Of a DNA stretch of 27,659 bases, positions 3,196-27,659 are shown piece after piece. The DNA lies in IMG/VR virus record IMGVR_UViG_3300012012_001280, positions 1 through 27,659 of that record; one strand, given 5' to 3'. The translations under genes were made by a program, and so were the position numbers. The notes under the pieces are model-generated. The model did no database searches. It saw only the letters and a list, made by a program, of their open reading frames with translations, and had not been told where the DNA came from. The DNA is from a virus. Numbering within the stretch: the first letter of the stretch is position 1; the number at the start of each line of letters is the position of its first letter.

Positions 3196-4250
3196 TATTC
3201 TAAAATTTTGTTTTGTATTATTTTTAAATCAACATTCTCATCCAAATGTATTAGTTTAACAATGTTATCTAGTTCTCCTATTAAATACTTTTGAAATGGT
3301 TTAATTGTTGTTGATAAGAATAAATTATACGATGTGGTTAATTGGTCTGCAGATGAAGAAAAACCTTGTGGTGATGGTAAACCGATGATTGCACCATCGA
3401 TAATTTTATGACCACTCATGATTTGTCTTTGTACCAATTCAAAGATACTACTGAAATAACCATCTTCAACATTGGTTTGGATTTGAGTAATCTCCGGTTT
3501 TTGTTCTGACTCGCCATAACTTATAATTACCCTTCCCGCATTCTCTGCACCCTGATATCTTTCTTCAATCTTTCGCAACACTTGGAATTGTTCATTCTCA
3601 CTTTCAGGTTGTTGTTGATTAAAGTGAACCCACAATGATGGACTTAGACCATTCTTAATGTTATGTAAATTGAAAACAGATATCTGTTCATTTAATTTAA
3701 CGTCATTGATAACACTAATCCAATCAGGACAACCGTAATAATCAAATGCAGCGTGTTCTTGTTTTATGTGGATTACTTGACGATTTTCTCTATCTTCAGA
3801 ATTAAAACTCGCAAATTCAATCACATTTTTTTTGGTTGGTTTCCACCATTCTCTGCAATAAAAATAATTATCATCTTTTCCGACCCTCATGTATTTTGCT
3901 GGTAAAATATGAACACTCGCCAAACCTTCGTTTCTATCACGTCTCCATACTGCTTCCAAAAATAAATTACCTGTCACCATATATTCAAAGACCATTTTTC
4001 TAAACAAAAAATTCAATGAATCAGATTCATTCATCATATAGTTTTTCTCAAATCCCATTCCCACAATTGCATCAATCTTGGAACGAAGACATGCGTTATG
4101 AATTGGAGAAACGTCTGTTAATCTCAATAATTCATAAGGGTACATATTGTTTGCACCCCATCGAATATATGGTTCATTTTTATTTTCTGTGACCTCAATG
4201 AAAGTTTCAGTTGTGTCATATTTTGAAAAGTCTAATCTATGTATTTTCAT
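3195..4250 (-). CDS. Portal protein
   Basis: This encodes 351 residues from the ATG at 4250; a longer reading frame to 4316 would overlap the previous gene by 80 bases, so the inner start is preferred. Typical portal features of Bacteroidota siphophages are PYIRWGANNMYPYELLRL near the N-terminus, HNACLRSKIDAIVGMGF, FEYMVTGNLFLEAVWRR, and a helical C-terminal half with FSSSADQLTTSYNLF. The portal forms the dodecameric DNA channel at one head vertex, takes TerL during packaging and the adaptor afterwards. It is coupled to the adaptor gene. It lies more than 20 kb from TerL on this strand, which is unusual. Confidence 0.8.
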   Translation of the reverse strand: MKIHRLDFSKYDTTETFIEVTENKNEPYIRWGANNMYPYELLRLTDVSPIHNACLRSKIDAIVGMGFEKNYMMNESDSLNFLFRKMVFEYMVTGNLFLEAVWRRDRNEGLASVHILPAKYMRVGKDDNYFYCREWWKPTKKNVIEFASFNSEDRENRQVIHIKQEHAAFDYYGCPDWISVINDVKLNEQISVFNLHNIKNGLSPSLWVHFNQQQPESENEQFQVLRKIEERYQGAENAGRVIISYGESEQKPEITQIQTNVEDGYFSSIFELVQRQIMSGHKIIDGAIIGLPSPQGFSSSADQLTTSYNLFLSTTIKPFQKYLIGELDNIVKLIHLDENVDLKIIQNKILE

Positions 4251-15114: not shown

Positions 15115-15327
15115 TTAAATAGATGGAGTAACGCTTGGTGTTGGTGTTATAGAAATCGATGGAGTAACACTTGGTGTTGGACTCGGACTTGGAGAAGGAA
15201 TATCTTCTTTTTCAACATTCATTATTATTTGACCATCAAATCTGGCACCATAAACATTACCTTGCCACTTCTTTTCACCGAGTGGTTTTAAGAGTTCCTC
15301 AATGGGATATTTTATCTTTCTTTTCAT
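15115..15327 (-). CDS. Small protein with Pro/Thr/Ser tail
   Basis: This 70-residue protein has a 42-residue basic N-terminal part (MKRKIKYPIEELLKPLGEKK) followed by [19 protein letters not shown] to the end. The start overlaps the stop of the 180-residue gene (ATGA). The tail has the same repeat type as the linkers in the 15877-17790, 18349-22653 and 22670-24382 genes but leads to no domain. It looks like an anchor-plus-linker piece whose distal domain is missing. The function is unknown. Confidence 0.55.
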   Translation of the reverse strand: MKRKIKYPIEELLKPLGEKKWQGNVYGARFDGQIIMNVEKEDIPSPSPSPTPSVTPSISITPTPSVTPSI

Positions 15328-15876: not shown

Positions 15877-17790
15877 TTAACCTGGAGGTGGACAAGCACC
15901 ATTTAATGTTATTACGATATTTTTACCAGGTGGAATTGATTCAGGTAAACTACATGAACAGAATGTTGATGTAGCACCTGCACCAATAACTACTGAAGTT
16001 GATTGACCTGTTGTACAACTTGTATATCCGACCGTTGTTGAAGTTGCTTCGTTATTTTGTACGGAATATTCACTACATGCACAAGGTGTGGATGATGGAG
16101 TCGGTGTTGGTGTTGGTGTTAAAGTTCTCGTTGGAGTTGGAGTTGGTGTTTGAGTTCTCGTTACAGTTGGTGTTGCACTTGTTGATGGAGTTGGACATGG
16201 ACAAGAATTACACACATAAATTATCTCAATAAATCCATCTTCAGTGGTTGGGAATGTACAACTACAAACTTGAATAACTGTATTCTTACTTATACTTTTT
16301 CTGGTTAATACTTTTGTTGTGCAATCAAAATATTCATATGTTCCAACATCTAATAAACTACCATTTGTTATTTGATATGTTTCACAAGTACATGGAGTTG
16401 TAGATGGTGTTAAAGTTGGGGTTAAACTTGGGGTAACTGATGGTGTTCTTGTTAAACTTGGAGTCACAGACGGTGTTAAAGTTTGACTTGGCGTTGGTGT
16501 CAGAGATAAATTAATACTTGCAGATGGTGTGGGTGTTGGACTTGTTGATGACGTTAATGATGGGGTAACCGATGGTGTTGGTGTTTGACTTCTCGTTACA
16601 CTTGGCGTTGGTGTTAATGAGGGTGTTGAACTTGGAGTTGGTGTTACTAATACACATGCACCATTGTCAGTCACGTCAATAATTGGTGGATATAAAATAG
16701 AATCAATACATGCACAAATTGTCTGACTTTGTAATGCTCGAATCGAACCTGTGATTCTTGTCTTTATTGTACAATCAATATAAGAATATACTTGTTCATT
16801 TATCGCATCATTATTTGTCAACGTATATTCATTACAAACGCAATCAGGAGTTGTGGATGGGAATGGAGTTGCGGTTGGTGTTGGAGAAACATCTTCAACC
16901 GAACCTTGATATCCACCAAATAATTGTACCGTATATCTTTTCGTATTTGCTGGCATAATACTAGCCAAATTCTTTGGACCGGCACCAACATATAATACAT
17001 TATAATCTGTTACAAATTTGGTAAATACAAATCCAAGATAATTGGCGTTACAATCATTTCTTGGTCCACCACCATTTTGTAATATATTATCGTATGTTAC
17101 AGTTGATAATAAATTATTATTGACATCATAAAATTTATATTCAACATAATAAGGTTCTGCAACTCTTACATCACTAATCCACCAGTTTGTGAATCCCAAT
17201 GTAAACCAATCTCTTTCACGTATATATGTGGTTCTTGGTGCATTGGTCATGAATCTACCTAAGTCAGGTAAACCATCCATAACAATAGTTTGATAATCAA
17301 AATTTTCTAAATCAGAATCTTGGTTTGAACCCATCGTTCCGTTATAGACCTTATATGTACCATTTTGTTGTGCGGGACTACCGACATTACTTCCAATACC
17401 TGTAAATCCTGTTACAGTTCCAAATTGGGTTGATGAATATTCTTCACCACATCGAACCACATAATATTTTACAAATGTGTTACCAGTTCCCGTTTCAATA
17501 TTTGGATTGGAAAATGGAAATGTTTGGTGAACATAAATTGATGTCCCTGACCAACTACTGACTGGTTGATTGTTTAAATAATTCTTTAATATTTCTGATA
17601 CATCAATTGTCCCTAGACCATATGGATTTGGTGTCGTTTTTCCTGCATAAATTTGAACACCATTAACTGAAACAGTAAATGTATATTTGTAATCAAATTT
17701 ATTTGTTGTATCACCACTAACGATGAAATACAATCCATCACTCAAAACGGGACTAAATGGTTCAGGACTGCGTACAATTGATATCGCCAT
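15877..17790 (-). CDS. Linker-rich tail adhesin with three Cys-rich repeats
   Basis: This 637-residue protein has an N-terminal beta domain (about 1-298) with [40 protein letters not shown] and an [11 protein letters not shown] segment, probably the virion anchor. Next come three copies of a 60-70 residue module that starts C-x-C-x-x-Y-x-[LIV]-x-N ([30 protein letters not shown]), has a central [DS]CT, then CAC or CSC, and in copies one and three ends NGAC. The modules are joined by Thr-Pro-Ser linkers of 20-80 residues. In a cytoplasmic phage protein the paired Cys may bind metal or form disulfides after release. It is likely a receptor-binding stalk. Confidence 0.65.
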
Positions 17791-17796
17791 ATATTG

Positions 17797-17826
17797 TAAA
17801 TATAAATATTTTAATTAAAATCCAAA
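17797..17826 (-). promoter_or_regulatory. Weak promoter candidate TTTG-N18-TATATTTA
   Basis: On the minus strand TTTG (17823-17826) and TATATTTA (17797-17804) are 18 bases apart, six bases before the ATG at 17790. It overlaps the end of the upstream gene. In DNA this AT-rich a chance match is quite possible. Confidence 0.25.
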
Positions 17827-18347
17827 TTCTCCTTTATGTAATTCTCGAAATATATCTTTGCTGCTTCACCAATCTTTTCTTCAATTTCATCAATTGTTGT
17901 ATTGATTGCATTCTCCAAAAATTTAATTCCGAATATACCATATTTTCCAATTGAACGTCTGATTAAATAAACCAACGATTTTCTTGGAATAAATCTACCT
18001 TTCTCATCTCTAGCTGGTTTAACTCTTCTTACGGTCCATCTATCTATCGGACCTAATGGTGGATAACGACCAGGTCTTCTTCCATTTTCAACATATTCCC
18101 AATAATCAGCAGAACCAAAATCAACAACCAATTTTGGAAGACCATCATCAAAATCAGATACCCATTCAACATTAACTGAATTATATAAATTACCACTTGC
18201 AATCTTATTTGCAATGGGTGTTGGATATCGACCACTTACAGGTTTTGCTTGACCCGAATAAGTTCGTGATGGATAATTCTTTTTTAAATTGGACTGAATA
18301 TTTGTTTTTAACAAATCAGCAATTTGATTTAATATCTGTTCTTCCAT
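17811..18347 (-). CDS. HK97 gp10-like head-tail joining protein
   Basis: This 178-residue protein has the pattern of the gp10-like tail-completion family: an N-terminal helix ([18 protein letters not shown]), a conserved [10 protein letters not shown] strand, [19 protein letters not shown] followed by [13 protein letters not shown], then a helical C-terminus ([21 protein letters not shown]). The Y-x-x-Y-x-E-x-G-R-R-P-G motif with a following Trp is characteristic. Members form a ring or adaptor between neck and tail tube. It lies next to the two tail-terminator-like genes, which supports calling this stretch a neck module. Confidence 0.75.
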
Positions 18348-18348
18348 A

Positions 18349-20715
18349 TTAACTTAATTGAACTGAAGTAACTGAAGAATTAAATGCTGTTCCAAGATTT
18401 GTATAGAATGCGGTATCTTCGGTTCCGTCTGAATTTAATCTAACTAATCTATTTCTTGTTAATCCATTAAATGTTGTATATAAACCGCCCACTAATATTT
18501 TTCCATCGTTTTGGGCATTAATAAAATTAGTAGCACTAGTACCAAATGCTGTTCCTAAATTTGTATAGAATGTAGTATCTTCGGTTCCATTACTGTTTAA
18601 ACGAATTAATCTATTTCTAACATTACCATTAAATAATGTAAATGCACCACCAATTAGTATTTTTCCATCAGATTGAATTAAGATATCGGTTGCACTTGTA
18701 GTAAATGCTGACCCAAGATTTGTGTAGAATGCAGTATCTTCAGTTCCATCACTATTTAATCTAATTATTCTATTTCTAACATTACCATTAAATCCTGTAA
18801 AATTACCAACTATTACTATTTTTCCGTCAGATTGTAATTTAACATCACTAGTAATAGCACTAAATGATGTACCTAAGTTTGTATAGAATGCCGTATCTTC
18901 GGTTCCATCATTGTTCAATCGAACAAATCTATTTCTTGTAATACCATTTAATGTTGTATATTGACCAGCAACTAAAATTTTTGTATCGGATTGTTCTTGA
19001 AATCCTCTCACAACATCACCAAATCCTGTTCCTAAATTTGCATAAAACGCGGTATCTTCAGTTCCGTCTGAATTTAATCTAATTATTCTATTTCTTGTAT
19101 TTCCATTAAAATTAGTAAATAAACCACCCACTAATATTTTTCCGTCAGATTGTACAAATATTGCTTCGACACTAACACTAGCACCAGTAAAAGCGGTTCC
19201 AAGATTTGTATAGAATGCCGTATCTTCGGTTCCATTACTATTTAAACGAACTAATCTATTTCTTGTATTTCCATTTAATGATGTTATAGTACCTCCAACT
19301 AATATTTTTCCATCAGATTGTATTGTTGTACAAGCTATATTACCAACAAATCCTGTTCCAAGATTAGTATAAAATGATGTATTTTCTGTTCCATCATTAT
19401 TTAATTGAATCATTCTGGCTCTTGACAATCCATTAAAAGTAGCAAAATTACCACCGACTAATATTTTTTGAAGAGGCAATGTTGATGGTGTAGGAGATGG
19501 TGTAACACTTGGTGCGCCTCCTTGACTTGGTGTTGGAGTTGGAGTTGGGGTTAATGATGGTGTTATGCTTGGTGTTGGTGTTGGAGTAACCGGTGGAACG
19601 GTACCAAAATTTAATAATATTGCTAATACTGTTAAATTAAATGATGCTCCTAAGTTTGAATAAAATGAGGTATCTACAGTTCCATCTGAATTTAATCTCA
19701 TTCCATATAATCTAGATACACTATTTAATTGTGTAAATGCACCACCAACAACTATTTTCCCATCAGATTGAATTTCAATATCATGAACAGTATTATTATA
19801 ACCCGTTCCAAGATTTGTGTAAAATGAAGTATCTTCTGTTCCGTCTGAATTTAATCTAATTAATCCATTTCTAGTATTACCATTAAATTGTGTTATAGTA
19901 CCACCTACAACTATTTTACCATCTGATTGGATTTTACAACTATATACTTGACCTGTAAATCCTGTTCCTATATTTGTTGTAAATGATGTGTCTTCTGTTC
20001 CATCTGAATTTAATCTAACTAAATCATTTGTAGTATTTCCATTAAATGTAGTCCAATTACCTGCTATCAATAATTTACCATCAGATTGAATAATGATATC
20101 ATTAATCGGACCATCAAATGCTGTTCCTAAATTTGCATAAAACGCGGTATCTTCAGTTCCATCACTATTTAAACGAATTAATCTATTTCTTGTATTTCCA
20201 TTAAATGAAGTATATACACCACCTACCAATATTTTTCCATCAGATTGTTCATTTTGTACTCGAACAGTATCAGCAAATGATGTACCTAAATTTGTATAGA
20301 ATGCAGTATCTTCAGTTCCATCACTATTTAAACGAACTAATCTATTTCTTGTATTACCATTAAATGTTGAAAAAACACCTCCAACTAATATTTTTCCATC
20401 AGATTGTATTTTTACACATTGAGTAGTAGTATTAAATGCCGTTCCAAGATTTGTGTAGAATGCCGTATCTTCAGTTCCATCGCTATTTAAACGAACTAAT
20501 TTATTTCTTGTAATACCATTTAATGTTCCGAATGAACCAGCAAGAATTATTTTATTATCAGATTGTCTATCTGCCCAATTAATCTGACCATTAAATCCTG
20601 TTCCTAAATTTGTATAAAATGTTGTATCCTCTGTTCCACTTTCATCTAATTGTAAGGCTCTTTGTCTTACTTGACCATTAAATTGTGTAAATTGACCACC
20701 AAATAATAATTTAAG
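18349..20715 (-). repeat. Two sets of seven blade repeats (about 160 bp each)
   Basis: Fourteen units of about 159 bases code for DUF5122-like blades, in two sets separated by a linker at about 19479-19598. The units are similar at DNA level as well as in protein. For example, 45 bases at 18434-18478 recur exactly at 22917-22961 in the next gene. Confidence 0.8.
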
Positions 20716-22653
20716 ATAGGAAGGAGTTGAAGATGTTGATGATGGAGTAGGTGTTAATGATGGTGTTACACTTGGAGTTGCTGAAGGAGTAACACTTGGG
20801 GTTTCAGATGGTGTTACACTTGGAGTTTCTGAAGGAGTAACACTTGGGGTTTCTGAAGGAGTAACACTTGGGGTTTCAGATGGTGTTACACTCGGAGTTT
20901 CAGATGGTGTTACACTCGGAGTTTCAGATGGTGTTATACTTGGAGTTAATGATGGGGTTGGAGTTGGTGATAATGTTGGTGTTGGGGTTGGAGTAACATA
21001 TGGTGCAAAATTTACAATAGTTGGACATGCACATGCCGACGTATCAACATTGTTCACACTAAAACCTGTTACACATTCACCAGGTTGTAATACAGGATTT
21101 AAATTAAAACTATGATTATGGTCTCCTTGTGCAATTGTTTCAGTTCCACAATAAATCGTACCTAAATCACCATATGCACATCCTGATACAATATAATTGC
21201 AAAATGCGTTTGCTGGACTTGTAAATGATGGGTCATTAAATAATGATAATTGAAAATTATGACAACCACCAAAATCAACTTCCAAATATTGTGTAATAAT
21301 TTGACAACTCGGAGTTATCGATGGAGTTAATGATGGTGTCGGTGTTAAAGATGGAGTTTCACTTGGTGTTACACTCATAGATGGTGTCAATGATGGGGTT
21401 ACACTCGGAGTTTCAGATGGAGTAACACTTGGGGTTTCTGATGGGGTTAATGATGGTGTAGGTGTTAAAGATGGAGTTTCAGATGGTGTTACACTCGGAG
21501 TTTCAGATGGTGTTACACTCGGAGTTTCTGATGGGGTTGCAGTTGGGGTTTCAGATGGTGTTAATGATGGTGTCGGTGTTAAAGATGGAGTTACACTTGG
21601 AGTTGCAGTTTCTGATGGAGTCGGAGTTGGACTTTCAAAAGGAGTAACACTTGGAGTTTCTGACGGGGTTGCAGTTGGAGTTTCTGAAGGAGTTAATGAT
21701 GGTGTAGGTGTTAAAGATGGAGTTTCTGAAGGAGTAATACTTGGGGTTTCTGATGGGGTTAATGATGGTGTAGGTGTTAAAGATGGAGTTTCACTCGGTG
21801 TTACACTTGGAGTTTCTGAAGGAGTTAATGATGGTGTAGGTGTTAAAGATGGAGTTACACTTGGAGTTTCTGATGGGGTTAATGATGGTGTCGGTGTTAA
21901 AGACGGAGTTTCACTCGGTGTTATACTCGGAGTTTCTGATGGGGTTAATGATGGTGTAGGTGTTAAAGATGGAGTTTCTGAAGGAGTAATACTTGGAGTT
22001 TCACTCGGTGTGACACTCATAGATGGAGTAATACTTGGGGTTTGACTTGGTGTAATACTTGGGGTTTCTGATGGAGTCGGAGTTGGGGTTTTAGATGGGG
22101 TTAATGATGGTGTAGGTGTTAAAGATGGGGTTCCTGAAGGAGTAACACTCGGAGTTTCTGATGGGGTTGCAGTTGGAGTTGGGGTAAGAGTTGGAGTTGG
22201 TGTTGGAGATACATACTGGTCGCATGCATTAATATCTTCAAAATATACTATATTAATATCCAATGCAACACCACCAATATGGTCATTGAATCTTTCAACA
22301 AATGTGTTTGATATAACAGGTACAACAACATCAAAATAATCATAAAATGTTCCACCTTTATTTGAAATCTGACTCATGAAATCTCTTGCTGCAAGACTCA
22401 TATCACTTACAACATCAACCTGATTTGATAAATCTGTATTAACAATATCACCAAAAATTATGGATAAATTTGCTTGTGTTGTATTTTCATCATAAGTAAA
22501 TTGAAGTGGTGTTACAAACATTAATGGATATAATGTGTTCTCATTTCTTTCACCAAAATAAACGATATCTCCATGACCAAAACTCTTCATTTTGATTGGA
22601 AGATTATCTTTAATTAATTCAATTAATTTGTAATATGTTAAGTAATGTTGCAT
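18349..22653 (-). CDS. Giant neck/tail fibre: terminator-like head, PTS linkers, two beta-propellers
   Basis: This 1434-residue protein is modular. Residues 1-148 form a compact domain ([39 protein letters not shown]) nearly shared with the neighbouring 570-residue protein and plausibly a tail-terminator fold. Residues 149-449 are a Thr-Pro-Ser linker containing [11 protein letters not shown] nine times. About 450-552 is a Cys-rich domain ([19 protein letters not shown] to CACPTIV). A second linker runs 553-645. About 647-1018 is a seven-bladed propeller of delta-60/DUF5122-type repeats ([37 protein letters not shown], about 53 residues each). A third linker (1019-1058) leads to a second seven-bladed propeller up to the end. 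It is probably a flexible adhesin. Confidence 0.75.
21307..22209 (-). repeat. Thr-Pro-Ser linker tandem repeat
   Basis: About 900 bases of degenerate nine-base codon triplets for T-P-x, organised in longer units that encode [17 protein letters not shown]. Many stretches are nearly identical. A similar but shorter array lies at about 20720-20997, and others occur in 15115-16650 and 23795-23940. Slippage or unequal recombination is likely here. Confidence 0.8.
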
Positions 22654-22669
22654 ATTATATATATGAATC

Positions 22670-24382
22670 TTAATTTAATGACATTGAAGTTAATGAACCT
22701 ACATTAAATCCTGTTCCAAGATTTGTATAGAATGCAGTATCTTCGGTTCCGTCATTATTTAATCTAACTAATCTATTTCTTGTTAATCCATTAAATGTTG
22801 AATATGCACCAGCTACCAATATTTTACCATCAGGTTGTTCCATAAGAGAAGTTACAGTACCACCAAATGCTGACCCTAAATTTGTATAGAATGCAGTGTC
22901 TTCTGTTCCATCATTATTTAATCTAACTAATCTATTTCTTGTTAATCCATTAAATGTTGTAAAATTACCAGCAATTAGTATTTTTCCATCAGATTGAATT
23001 AAGATATCGTTTGGACCAATAGTAAATGCTGTTCCTAAGTTTGCATAGAATGCAGTATCTTCGGTTCCGTCATTATTTAATCTAGCGATTCTGTTTCTAG
23101 TATTTCCATTAAATGTTGTGAATCCACCAACAATTACTATTTTACCATCGGATTGAGGAGCAACATAATTAATCTGACCACTAAATCCTGTTCCTAAATT
23201 TGTATAAAATGCAGTATCTTCTGTTCCATCAGAATTTAATCTAACAATTCTAAGTCTAGTATTTCCATTAAATGTTGAATATGAACCAACTACCAATATT
23301 TTTCCATCAGATTGAATAGCCGAATGAAATAGTTGAGCACCAAATCCTGTTCCAACATTTGTATAAAATGCAGTATCTTCAGTTCCATCACTATTTAGTC
23401 TAACAATTCTGTTTCTAGTATTTCCATTAAATGTTGTGAATCCGCCAATAACTACTATTTTTCCATCGGATTGAAGTGATGCCCAATTTAAAATAAGATT
23501 AAATGATGTACCTAAATTTGTATAGAATGCAGTATCTTCTGTTCCGTCATTGTTTAAACGAATTAAATATATTCTTGTTAATCCATTAAAAACACCAAAA
23601 GTACCGGCTAATATTATTTTTCCATCAGGTTGAGTTATTGTTGTATTAACACCACCAGTGGTAAATGCTGTACCTAAATTTGTATAAAATGCAGTATCTT
23701 CTGTTCCATCACTATTTAATCTAACAATTCTATTTCTAGTATTTCCATTAAATGTTGTATAACTATTACCAACTATTGTCATTCCTGTAAAAGTCACTGG
23801 TATAGATGATGGTGTTGGTGTTGGAGTTGGTGTTAAAGATGGAGTTACACTCGGAGTTTCTGATGGAGTTACACTCGGAGTTATTGATGGAGTTAATGAA
23901 GGTGTGGGTGTTACACTTGGAGATGGACTTGGAGACGGGATTGGTTCGTATTGGTCACACGCATTCATGTCCTCAAAGATTGTTACAGGAATGTTTAATT
24001 CGACACCTCCCAAATGGTCATTAAATCGTTCCAGAAACGTCGTTGATGTGTTTGGTAGGTCTGTATCAAAATAATCATAAAATACACCCAGCTTAATCTG
24101 TGATAGAAAATCCCTACATGCAAGATTCATATCACTTATGACATTAACCTCATTACTCATGTCAGTGTTTACAATATCACAAAATAAAATGTTTAGTGTA
24201 AACTGAGTTGTATTTTCATTATATGTTATTTGATTTGGAACAACATGCATCAAAGGATAAAGTGTTGGATTATTTTCTTTACCCAAATAACTTAAATCAC
24301 CAGTATTAAAACTTTTAATTTTAATTGGAAGATTTTGCGATATTAACTCAATTAGTTTTTTATAAGTTAAATAATGTTCCAT
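22670..24382 (-). CDS. Terminator-like domain fused to one beta-propeller
   Basis: This 570-residue protein is a paralogue of the next gene. Residues 1-148 match its N-terminal domain along the whole length ([71 protein letters not shown]). Residues 149-197 are a short PTS linker. About 198-570 is one propeller of seven delta-60/DUF5122-type repeats with the usual QSDGK-[IV]-[LV], FNGNTRNR and LN-[SN][13 protein letters not shown]. The chain starts in the middle of a blade ([13 protein letters not shown]) and ends with the missing strand, the normal closure of a circular propeller. A tail-terminator role of the first domain is inferred from length, context beside gp10-like and resemblance; the propeller would be a displayed binding domain. 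Confidence 0.75.
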
Positions 24383-24399
24383 TCTTTAATAAATACTTT

Positions 24400-24552
24400 T
24401 TAACGAACGTTATTTTTACCCTGCATTTTTTTCATTTCATTCTTCATTTCAATTGCCTCGTCCTTTTTATAAGATAAAAAATTCAAACATAGAATTACAT
24501 TCATATTATTGATTTGTTCCATTTTTGTTATGTCATCATTACAGAGAATCAT
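24400..24552 (-). CDS. Small ORF coupled to the 217-residue gene
   Basis: This 50-residue frame (MILCNDDITKMEQ at the start, KKMQGKNNVR at the end) starts in a TGATG overlap with the stop of the previous gene. It is Met/Lys/Asn-rich and probably helical. The overlap points to reinitiation. In lambda the two-part tail chaperone G/GT is made by frameshift; here no slippery sequence is visible, so a separate small partner protein is more likely. The function is unknown. Confidence 0.5.
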   Translation of the reverse strand: MILCNDDITKMEQINNMNVILCLNFLSYKKDEAIEMKNEMKKMQGKNNVR

Positions 24553-25205
24553 CAAGCATTTCCAATAAAACCTCGCAGTTTGGTTTTTATCTTTTGGAAC
24601 ATCTTCTTGAACTTGTTCTTTATTCTCGTCTTGACCATCTGTATTTGACTCTTCTGTTTCAAAGAATCCGCTAAAACTTTTGTGAATATTGTTACGCTTT
24701 GCAAAAAAAAACCTGATACACTTAAATAAAATTCTAATGGTAAATCCAAGAATTCTTCTGCTCGTTGTTCAATATCATTTGAATTATAATTTTCAATTTG
24801 ATATTTGTTATTTTTTAATTTCTTAACAACAGGTCGATATAATGTGGCCATAATCTTATGAATGTTATCCAATACATTTTCACCATTTGAATATACCTCA
24901 AGGTCAACCCATTCTGCCATGGTTAATTTATAAAAGTCTTGGACCAATCCATATTCCTTATCATTGTGTTTAAATTGAAAAATAATTTTACTTGGTTTTT
25001 CAACATGTAACATGGGTACTAGTTTCTTTTCAAGGAAATTAAAATTATCGGATTCCAATTCTTTTAATTCATTTTCAGGAATACCAGTCAAAACAGAAAT
25101 AATTTGAAATGTGTTTGGGTTACCAATCTTGGTTAAAGTTTGATAATGTCTAATACTAAGTGTTTGAGGTAATTCTATTTTTTGGTCGTTATTGTATATT
25201 ATCAT
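24552..25205 (-). CDS. Tail assembly chaperone-like protein
   Basis: This 217-residue protein directly follows TerL with an ATGA overlap. It has an N-terminal beta-hairpin (MIIYNNDQKIELPQTLSIRHY), then FQIISVLTGIPENELKEL, then the motif LTMAEWVDLEVY followed by HKIMATLYRPVV, and a strongly basic C-terminal helix (KTRIKNKFKKMFQKIKTKL). In Bacteroidota siphophages the E-W-x-D-L-E and LYRP segments occur in small proteins I associate with tail assembly, and the coupled 50-residue frame fits a two-part chaperone. The assignment is tentative. Confidence 0.45.
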   Translation of the reverse strand: MIIYNNDQKIELPQTLSIRHYQTLTKIGNPNTFQIISVLTGIPENELKELESDNFNFLEKKLVPMLHVEKPSKIIFQFKHNDKEYGLVQDFYKLTMAEWVDLEVYSNGENVLDNIHKIMATLYRPVVKKLKNNKYQIENYNSNDIEQRAEEFLDLPLEFYLSVSGFFLQSVTIFTKVLADSLKQKSQIQMVKTRIKNKFKKMFQKIKTKLRGFIGNA

Positions 25206-27401: not shown

Positions 27402-27599
27402 TTAAAGTGTTAATTTTTTCAAAACCTCCAACGCATTTTCATAAGTTGTTGGTTTTGAATTTGGATACATGCGATGATAAAAATCAAATATTTTATTCGC
27501 GTCGAATTCAGGTGTATCAACCAAATAATCTCTTATTTCTTTTTTTAAGTAGATATCCTTCTCGTTGTTAATAACATATTTTTTGCAATTACATCCCAT
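27402..27599 (-). CDS. Small MGCNCKK protein
   Basis: This 65-residue protein has a short N-terminal Cys pair (MGCNCKKYV), then a charged helical part (EKDIYLKKEIRDYLVD, DANKIFDFYHRMYPN, YENALEVLKKL). Small genes with the MGCNCKK start recur near the terminase in Bacteroidota phages, in my recollection, without known function. It is the first gene of the terminase block, preceded by the promoter inside the terminal repeat. The Cys pair may bind metal. Confidence 0.6.
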   Translation of the reverse strand: MGCNCKKYVINNEKDIYLKKEIRDYLVDTPEFDANKIFDFYHRMYPNSKPTTYENALEVLKKLTL

Positions 27600-27659
27600 A
27601 TATCCGTTTTTATAGATTTAATCTATATTATAAATATATAAATAATTAGCAAAAGTCTA
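27596..27659. repeat. Terminal direct repeat, right copy
   Basis: This repeats 1-64 with one mismatch (27605). It includes the start codon of the MGCNCKK gene, its leader and its promoter, and ends at the point equivalent to base 64, the stop codon of the zinc-finger gene. Joining the two copies gives a coherent circular map in which the 62-427 gene leads into the late block. Confidence 0.85.
27631..27655 (-). promoter_or_regulatory. Putative promoter of the terminase block, CTTTTG-N11-TATATTTA
   Basis: On the minus strand CTTTTG (27650-27655) and TATATTTA (27631-27638) are 11 bases apart, about 32 bases before the ATG at 27599. It is the third site with the same boxes and spacing as 434-458 and 653-677. 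Its upstream edge overlaps the stop codon of the preceding gene on the circle. Confidence 0.5.

Follow-up and report, generated by a model that had tools for sequence, protein, structure and literature searches.

We analysed a 27,659-base stretch of viral DNA, the IMG/VR virus record IMGVR_UViG_3300012012_001280, called the window below. Two of its genes, gA and gB, are probably the tail terminators of a small, probably Bacteroidota-infecting siphovirus, and would anchor exchangeable adhesins at its neck. Tail terminators are usually treated as conserved plumbing. We based this reading on the sequence architecture of the two genes, on their predicted folds and synteny, on the exchange of their extensions at the linker and on the purifying selection acting on the N-terminal socket. 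An earlier, sequence-only reading of this DNA had described a duplicated neck-type domain that displays beta-propellers on long linkers as an adhesion device. Its observation on gA and gB was right and the structural half of its interpretation holds, while the adhesion half is plausible.

The two genes lie side by side on the minus strand where they had been placed, and encode 570 aa (gA) and 1434 aa (gB). The N-terminal domain that they were said to share (N-domain) is identical in 97 of 152 alignment columns, and 66% identical in a second comparison. The Thr-Pro-Ser linkers and the propellers, one in gA and two in gB, were found again with the same count of 21 blades: PF17164 (DUF5122; Pfam cut-off, 27 bits) gave 7 matches in gA (E 5.9e-92, 302 bits) and 14 in gB (E 5e-169, 549 bits), spaced by 52-56 residues except across the linker that separates the two propellers of gB. 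The linkers of gB comprise about 302, 93 and 39 residues. Between the first two sits a Cys-rich module (about residues 450-552) that was absent from the earlier reading; it recurs in the extensions of six other loci (L009, L017, L023, L037, L042 and L054), and a Pfam scan gave zero matches over residues 450-552. The records of loci L003 and L008, which share 98.7-99.9% identity with the window wherever the two were compared, contain 21 DUF5122 matches each, as does the window.

The N-domain was modelled with AlphaFold2 (gA residues 1-147) from an alignment of 51 N-domains (A3). The model (pLDDT 85.9, pTM 0.82) has the terminator fold, namely a sheet of four main strands with two flanking helices. 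When it was compared with the PDB by Foldseek, the first 38 matches were all tail-terminator, collar, neck or connector entries from phages or phage-tail-like particles, and the first unrelated entry stood at rank 39; the best matches were lambda gpU (E 4.8e-4), T5 p142, Bxb1 and Diffocin. With VIA-align, the Chi neck and gpU (3fz2_A, 123 residues, 3.1 A) both scored Z 10.8, and the R2 pyocin collar Z 10.6. Among the 50 entries listed, a clearly unrelated fold appeared first at Z 7.3, just below an unnamed protein (7.6) and an archaeal virus tail (7.5). T4 gp15 was also among the matches of the two programs, and VIA-align listed 4acv and 2gjv, which an excerpt of PMC11784142, an article on T5, counts among the terminators crystallising as hexamers. 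The N-domain is thus a tail terminator by predicted fold, in agreement with what had been proposed from the letters. Because sequence methods were weak or empty, this assignment rests on fold comparison: a tblastn search of INPHARED with the N-domain gave zero matches, two peptide patterns matched 91 stretches in species genomes, none of which was a relative by tblastn, the best PHROG E-value over the 51 members was 5.8e-4, to a family of unknown function, and the PDB sequence search returned one match, at E 0.98. In an isolate, Nonlabens phage P12024S, an N-domain was indicated by the profile hidden Markov model (HMM; E 3.7e-6, with few ORFs in the set searched) and by BFVD (E 6.1e-10), while single-sequence hhalign gave a probability of only 32.7%. 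Two Bacteroides phages that are near by TerL, EMB2 and BT638P2, have genes of fitting size near TerL; hhalign probabilities were 0.2-0.9% and homology is therefore not claimed.

The N-domain occurs in 60 viral loci (the L-numbers used here), where its gene stands among neck and tail morphogenesis genes. TerL and P217, a tail-assembly-chaperone-like gene, precede it in 58 of them; in the other two, the N-domain gene starts at base 142 or 234 of the locus. A gp10-like gene follows in 44 loci; in 14 of the remaining 16 the locus stops no more than 407 bases past the N-domain gene, and in the other two (L027, L038) a fibre frame comes next. In the window, the gp10-like neighbour noticed earlier is confirmed by its match to phrog_5. 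The conserved order is TerL-P217-N-gp10-P637-P180-P877, and it is largely kept in phage P12024S, the closest isolate that was found, whose terminator is bare. We then considered what follows the N-domain, keeping near-duplicate records and excluding gA and gB of the window from counts and comparisons of extensions. The loci hold 68 N-domain genes, 10 of which run off a contig end. Among the 58 complete ones, 37 have an extension that goes beyond linker sequence, 20 add no more than 35 residues and one, frame-broken, carries a linker only. DUF5122 propellers also occur in other lineages (3 stretches in L042, 4 in L055), and the extension of L028 reaches 32.9 bits with no stretch passing singly. 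That of L036 matches an arabinofuranosidase model (29.6 bits, cut-off 25), and other extensions consist of Cys-rich modules, repeats of other sorts or long fibre-like tails. In a Pfam scan of 20 extended proteins, 15 had no match at E 0.01. A DUF5122 search covered 20 of the 60 N-domain records; 12 had matches at E <= 1e-3, 10 of them above the cut-off, and 8 had none. The terminator extension of L051 (4685-6139) is made of degenerate 'SYDGITWSASTNGN' repeats with no Pfam family over the cut-off, and is possibly another propeller.

The arrangement appears to be wider than these loci. BFVD contains 103 matches to the N-domain model at E <= 1e-3 and, among the 50 listed, 13 are proteins of 400-1035 aa with the N-domain fold, which suggests that a terminator with a long extension is found elsewhere. 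Only four of the 13 are annotated (a ConA-like lectin, two collagen repeats, one SO2946-like), and one 154-aa match among the 50 is annotated as a tail completion protein. Long proteins of this kind come from uncultured Caudovirales (e.g., A0A6J5LS77, A0A6J5NWP7); they are annotated by another part or not at all and were compared by structure match, and are likely to be the same kind of device as gA and gB.

A close relative, L004, showed that the arm can change while its base stays. Between the window and L004, 145 of 147 residues of the gA N-domain, 175 of 178 of gp10 and 377 of 384 of TerL are identical; TerL, gp10 and the 637-aa protein are 95-98% identical, and P217 and the gB N-domain 92%. 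In contrast, the similarity fraction of the gA extensions of L003 and of L008 to that of L004 is 0.04. Along gA, DNA identity between the window and L004 is 0.90-1.0 up to codon 120 and 0.77-0.87 up to codon 150, then 0.3 from codon 151. Likewise, L047 and L059 have fully identical N-domains followed by extensions of 126 and 24 aa, and L050 and L051 N-domains that are 98% identical followed by 24 and 324 aa. The dN/dS of the N-domain was 0.05-0.15 (for that of gB, 0.13 against L006 and 0.15 against L004), indicating strong purifying selection on both copies. In L004, a gene that resembles by eye the HNH endonucleases of the window lies between P217 and gA (3569-4054) and adjoins the exchanged module, where it might promote gene conversion. 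A module may have passed from gB to gA in L005, though this would rest on a single 4.7-kb contig whose five-bladed end matches gB of L006. In L007 (4343-8352), the gB frame is broken within the linker, either really or through an assembly error in the repeats.

Two N-domain genes in tandem were found in 8 of the 60 loci, the window group and L034/L035. The L034 copies are sisters in the tree (support 100/90; 122 of 156 residues identical), apart from the window group, so duplication has occurred at least twice. In L034 and L035, the first copy is bare and the second extended; in L004, gA is extended and gB has a tail of only 28 aa. The joint of gA with gB in the tree has a support of 84/23, which gives no firm resolution.

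The propeller was modelled from gA residues 196-570 with an alignment of eight propellers. AlphaFold2 returned seven repeats of strands plus a helix (pLDDT 91.6, pTM 0.90), bearing out the seven blades that had been read from the repeats. The best VIA match is a designed propeller with seven blades, 7bid (278 residues aligned, Z 27.5); other propellers score nearly as high, and the best Foldseek match is CylK. The three last blades of the propellers were dropped and the other 18 were compared. Their identity averages 63% in amino acids and 71% in DNA, and 28% of codon pairs for equal residues differ; recent blade amplification or gene conversion was rejected as the main story. Variation among these blades peaks at alignment columns 21, 22, 26-32 and 43; in the model, columns 27-32 form the first strand of each blade and columns 21-26 the preceding loop. 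By general propeller topology, rather than from coordinates here, the first strand lines the central channel. Between the propellers of relatives, dN/dS was 0.61-1.80 in the strip of first strand and loop and 0.25-0.51 in the blade framework, and each of the 9 comparisons gave the higher value in the strip. Selection on the variable strip is thereby suggested, not proved, because its positions were picked by sequence pattern after the variation had been noticed and because divergence is high. When the propeller was used by itself as the query, 326 viral stretches encoding a relative were found and 77 loci were kept; the statement that such propellers are known mainly from secreted bacterial proteins was therefore too narrow, though only 3 of 50,697 INPHARED records match at E <= 1e-5. 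Frames were examined from 49 of these loci. The terminator N-domain is present in three, which all belong to the window group, and another three (L069-L071) represent later parts of the group's gB.

Altogether, the device could work as follows. The N-domains of gA and gB most likely form a hexameric ring at the head-proximal end of the tail tube, from which the C-terminal linkers would leave as flexible stalks holding exchangeable binding modules, here one propeller on one arm and two propellers plus the Cys-rich module on the other. A ring bearing several propellers could contact glycans or proteins of the surface before the tail tip does, so that the neck would make the first, reversible contacts with the host surface. 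Evolution would keep the socket and replace the arm, by a switch at the linker boundary or by loss in some relatives, and in some others a separate fibre gene may fill the slot of the arm. In six loci (L016, L022, L027, L029, L038 and L041), the terminator adds no more than 50 residues and is followed by a gene for a collagen-like fibre; gp10 comes after this gene in the four loci that are long enough. The short-tailed terminators of these six loci end with an ILFEDxDIMTTE-like tag, and the fibre gene encodes (GSSGTSG)n; the tag could be a docking site.

We compared gA and gB with known systems. The N-domain is like the tail terminators lambda gpU, SPP1 gp17, T5 p142, T4 gp15 and the R-pyocin collar in predicted fold, size and position. 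Contrary to them, gA and gB continue into linkers with large modules that can be exchanged, and the gene may be present in two copies. In excerpts of a 2024 article on T5 (PMC11784142), the only additions to terminators mentioned are domains that interact with the sheath and, in PVC16, a second copy of the terminator domain, and part of PMC10491603 describes C-terminal arms of the pyocin and Milano terminators that reach outward into the sheath. The neck passage structure (NPS) of lactococcal phages of the 936 and P335 groups offers another comparison. According to excerpts of PMC6669499 and PMC10747895, its N-terminal part at the neck is conserved, with the first ~180 residues nearly identical, while its C-terminal groups are variable, have carbohydrate-binding ends and are optional (73 of 113 phages). 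Similarly, the N-terminal part of gA and gB is conserved and their C-terminal modules vary. However, the NPS anchor is predicted as a BppU-like beta-sandwich and its stalk as a coiled coil, whereas gA and gB have a terminator fold and Thr-Pro-Ser stalks; as anchor and stalk differ, we compared the two proteins with NPS without filing them as such. By this analogy, the best reading is that gA and gB would work like lactococcal NPS on another anchor. The collar whiskers and spikes (T4 wac, XM1 gp40) are likewise neck appendages, but are borne by a separate collar, while the arms of gA and gB would be borne by the terminator. The DUF5122 propeller (PF17164), which the 21 matches and the predicted fold assign to gA and gB, is carried here by a phage neck domain; other phage propellers are borne by other carriers. 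Neck adhesion appendages are known, yet a terminator as their anchor was not found described in the open-access literature searched, nor was a terminator fused to adhesins among the matches listed there. If the reading is true, neck adhesins whose present annotation covers just their ends, or is missing, could be traced through a terminator-fold N-domain, and the arrangement provides a simple natural system for swapping binding modules without touching the assembly interface.

Several points weigh against neck adhesins anchored by a terminator. The Foldseek E-values of the N-domain are modest even for gpU, with seven matches below 1e-3 and TMq of 0.34-0.61 over the first 38, and there is no sequence link to a named terminator, none being significant in Pfam, PHROGs or PDB sequences. 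The outward exit of the C-terminus from the ring is our inference, the N-domain being known as a monomer model. Two paralogues for one ring are unusual. As 20 of the 58 complete genes lack a sizeable extension, the device is dispensable. DUF5122 propellers are borne by many other phage proteins, so the propeller itself is uninformative on the neck, and the modules have no known ligand. The raised dN/dS of the strip, first noticed for its variation, may reflect relaxed constraint. It is improbable, nevertheless, that the N-domain is another neck ring component with a terminator-like fold: some matches are neck or connector maps whose title leaves the chain unnamed, and sequence links are absent, but the named matches are mostly terminators proper (gpU, p142, gp15, Mu, R4C), the size and position of the domain fit, and the adjoining gp10-like gene accounts for the tail completion or Neck1 role. 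An assembly artefact, in which repetitive linkers and blades joined different phages, is very improbable and largely refuted for the window. The repeats are long, and the oddities of L005 and L007 mean that single contigs of the group can be wrong; against this, the gA extension of L008 has the same length and 422 of 423 identical residues, with gB 16 aa different in length, both L003 and L008 records reproduce the 21 blades, and 37 of 58 complete genes elsewhere are extended.

The two copies could also divide the labour, one being the true terminator and the other a whisker base stacked on or beside the ring. The tandem loci, the repeated duplication and the bare or short-tailed partners in L034/L035 and L004 speak for this, but both N-domains are under purifying selection and 27 of the 44 complete single-copy genes are extended, so that a single protein must do both jobs there; we regard such a division as unlikely, though the strongest of these alternatives. 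Slightly less credible is that the arms are general stickers for glycans, mucus or particles, or have another role such as in fibre assembly, and do not bind host receptors. Linker lengths and modules vary freely, some relatives have none, and T4 whiskers matter in tail fibre assembly, as stated in part of PMC10491603. On the other hand, the slot is shared by very different modules (propeller, Cys-rich, collagen-like fibre), which fits binding better than fibre assembly, and the variable strip in the propeller speaks against this alternative too. In the reading that we prefer, the hexameric ring, the outward display, adhesion, the type of ligand and the place of each paralogue are presumed.

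Linkers and modules of this kind occur on other proteins as well. Similar linkers are found in the 637-aa and 70-aa proteins of the window. The counterpart of the latter in L004 has 394 aa and continues into a Gly-rich domain, and the first 41 residues match with E 5.4e-29 (two-sequence set). L122 (2179-9012) encodes a 2277-aa protein with an N-terminus like that of the 877-aa protein of the window (BLASTP E 3e-16 outside the linkers), then long linkers and a propeller (71 TPS/TPT motifs in all), followed by stretches rich in Cys and a Gly-rich end. DUF5122 matches also lie on a protein that starts with a 'SDYLGENRAILD'-like segment, in the records from which L022, L054, L041 and L027 were taken; a pattern search showed no such segment in the window. 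A propeller protein of L073 matched the 70-aa protein (phmmer E 1.7e-7), but L069, whose frame starts within a gB-type linker, matched too; zero matches at E <= 10 remained without the linker, and L073 was therefore not counted as a carrier. Under a broader reading, small siphoviruses from the environment, forming a large clade, would all use the terminator ring as a universal socket into which adhesins are plugged, with the window paralogues mixed in one ring that shows two arms, cassettes placed also on the 637-aa protein, the Gly-rich relative of the 70-aa protein, the relative of the 877-aa protein and the 'SDYLGENRAILD' carriers, and the propeller channel as a binding surface that varies while its frame stays fixed. 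We hold this for possible, though doubtful as a whole.

The window is probably a near-complete, circularly permuted genome, because its termini (1-64 and 27596-27659) overlap by 64 bases at 98.4% identity and the junction is read through in L003, L008 and L010. The structural genes are for the most part on the minus strand and, in reading direction, encode an HNH endonuclease, a TerS-like protein, TerL (Terminase_3), P217, gA, gB and the gp10-like protein, then proteins of 637, 180, 70 and 877 aa, a tape-measure-like protein (976 aa), proteins of 744 and 178 aa, a capsid-like protein (314 aa, a label given by a weak PHROG match only), a 179-aa protein, the portal (373 aa) and others (Table 1).

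Table 1. Coordinates in the window of gA, gB, their parts and neighbouring features.
Feature	Position	Strand	Basis or remark
gA, 570 aa	22670-24382	-	ORF
gA residues 1-147, predicted tail-terminator N-domain	23942-24382	-	AF2 model, Foldseek/VIA, 51-member alignment
gA residues 148-193, Thr-Pro-Ser linker	23804-23941	-	
gA residues 194-570, predicted seven-bladed DUF5122 propeller	22673-23803	-	7 PF17164 matches; AF2; VIA
gA stop codon	22670-22672	-	
gB, 1434 aa	18349-22653	-	ORF
gB residues 1-147, second predicted tail-terminator N-domain	22213-22653	-	identity to gA
gB residues 148-449, 302-residue Thr-Pro-Ser linker	21307-22212	-	tandem repeats, periods e.g. 24, 66, 120 bases
gB residues 450-552, Cys-rich 'TQYLEV' module	20998-21306	-	recurs in other terminator genes
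gB residues 553-645, second linker	20719-20997	-	
gB residues 646-1018, propeller 1	19600-20718	-	PF17164 matches
gB residues 1019-1057, third linker	19483-19599	-	
gB residues 1058-1434, propeller 2	18352-19482	-	PF17164 matches
gB stop codon	18349-18351	-	
gp10-like neck/tail completion gene	17811-18347	-	directly after gB; phrog_5 (tail completion or Neck1) E 3.3e-7
637-aa protein, Thr-Pro-Ser linkers and Cys-rich stretches after a conserved N-terminal part	15877-17790	-	
70-aa protein ending in linker	15115-15327	-	counterpart in L004
P217, frame 0, tail-assembly-chaperone-like with -1 slippery site	24552-25205	-	
Slippery heptamer T TTT TTT of P217, in phase	24705-24711	-	
-1 continuation of P217, 101 aa + stop	24400-24705	-	ends 17 bases before gA

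The best-ranked matches of TerL are mostly phages of Bacteroides and relatives (31-34% identity). A Bacteroidota host is only a guess from sequence, because the 1107 records that TerL matches in total span many hosts; the host of phage P12024S is a Persicivirga strain. P217, adjoining the terminator, looks like a tail assembly chaperone of the lambda G/GT type, and a -1 slippery site of this type marks genes for long-tail assembly; its match to Pfam Phage_TAC_7 is weak (E 0.08). Among its homologues, the heptamer is in phase within the overlap in 57 of 58 sequences and in phase anywhere in the frame in all 60 tabulated, and the -1 frame is the longer open one in 56 of 58 (exceptions, L004 and L061). 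In the window, this -1 frame is open down to 24400 and encodes a conserved ARFYFxLTYQLAKEDITK-like domain.

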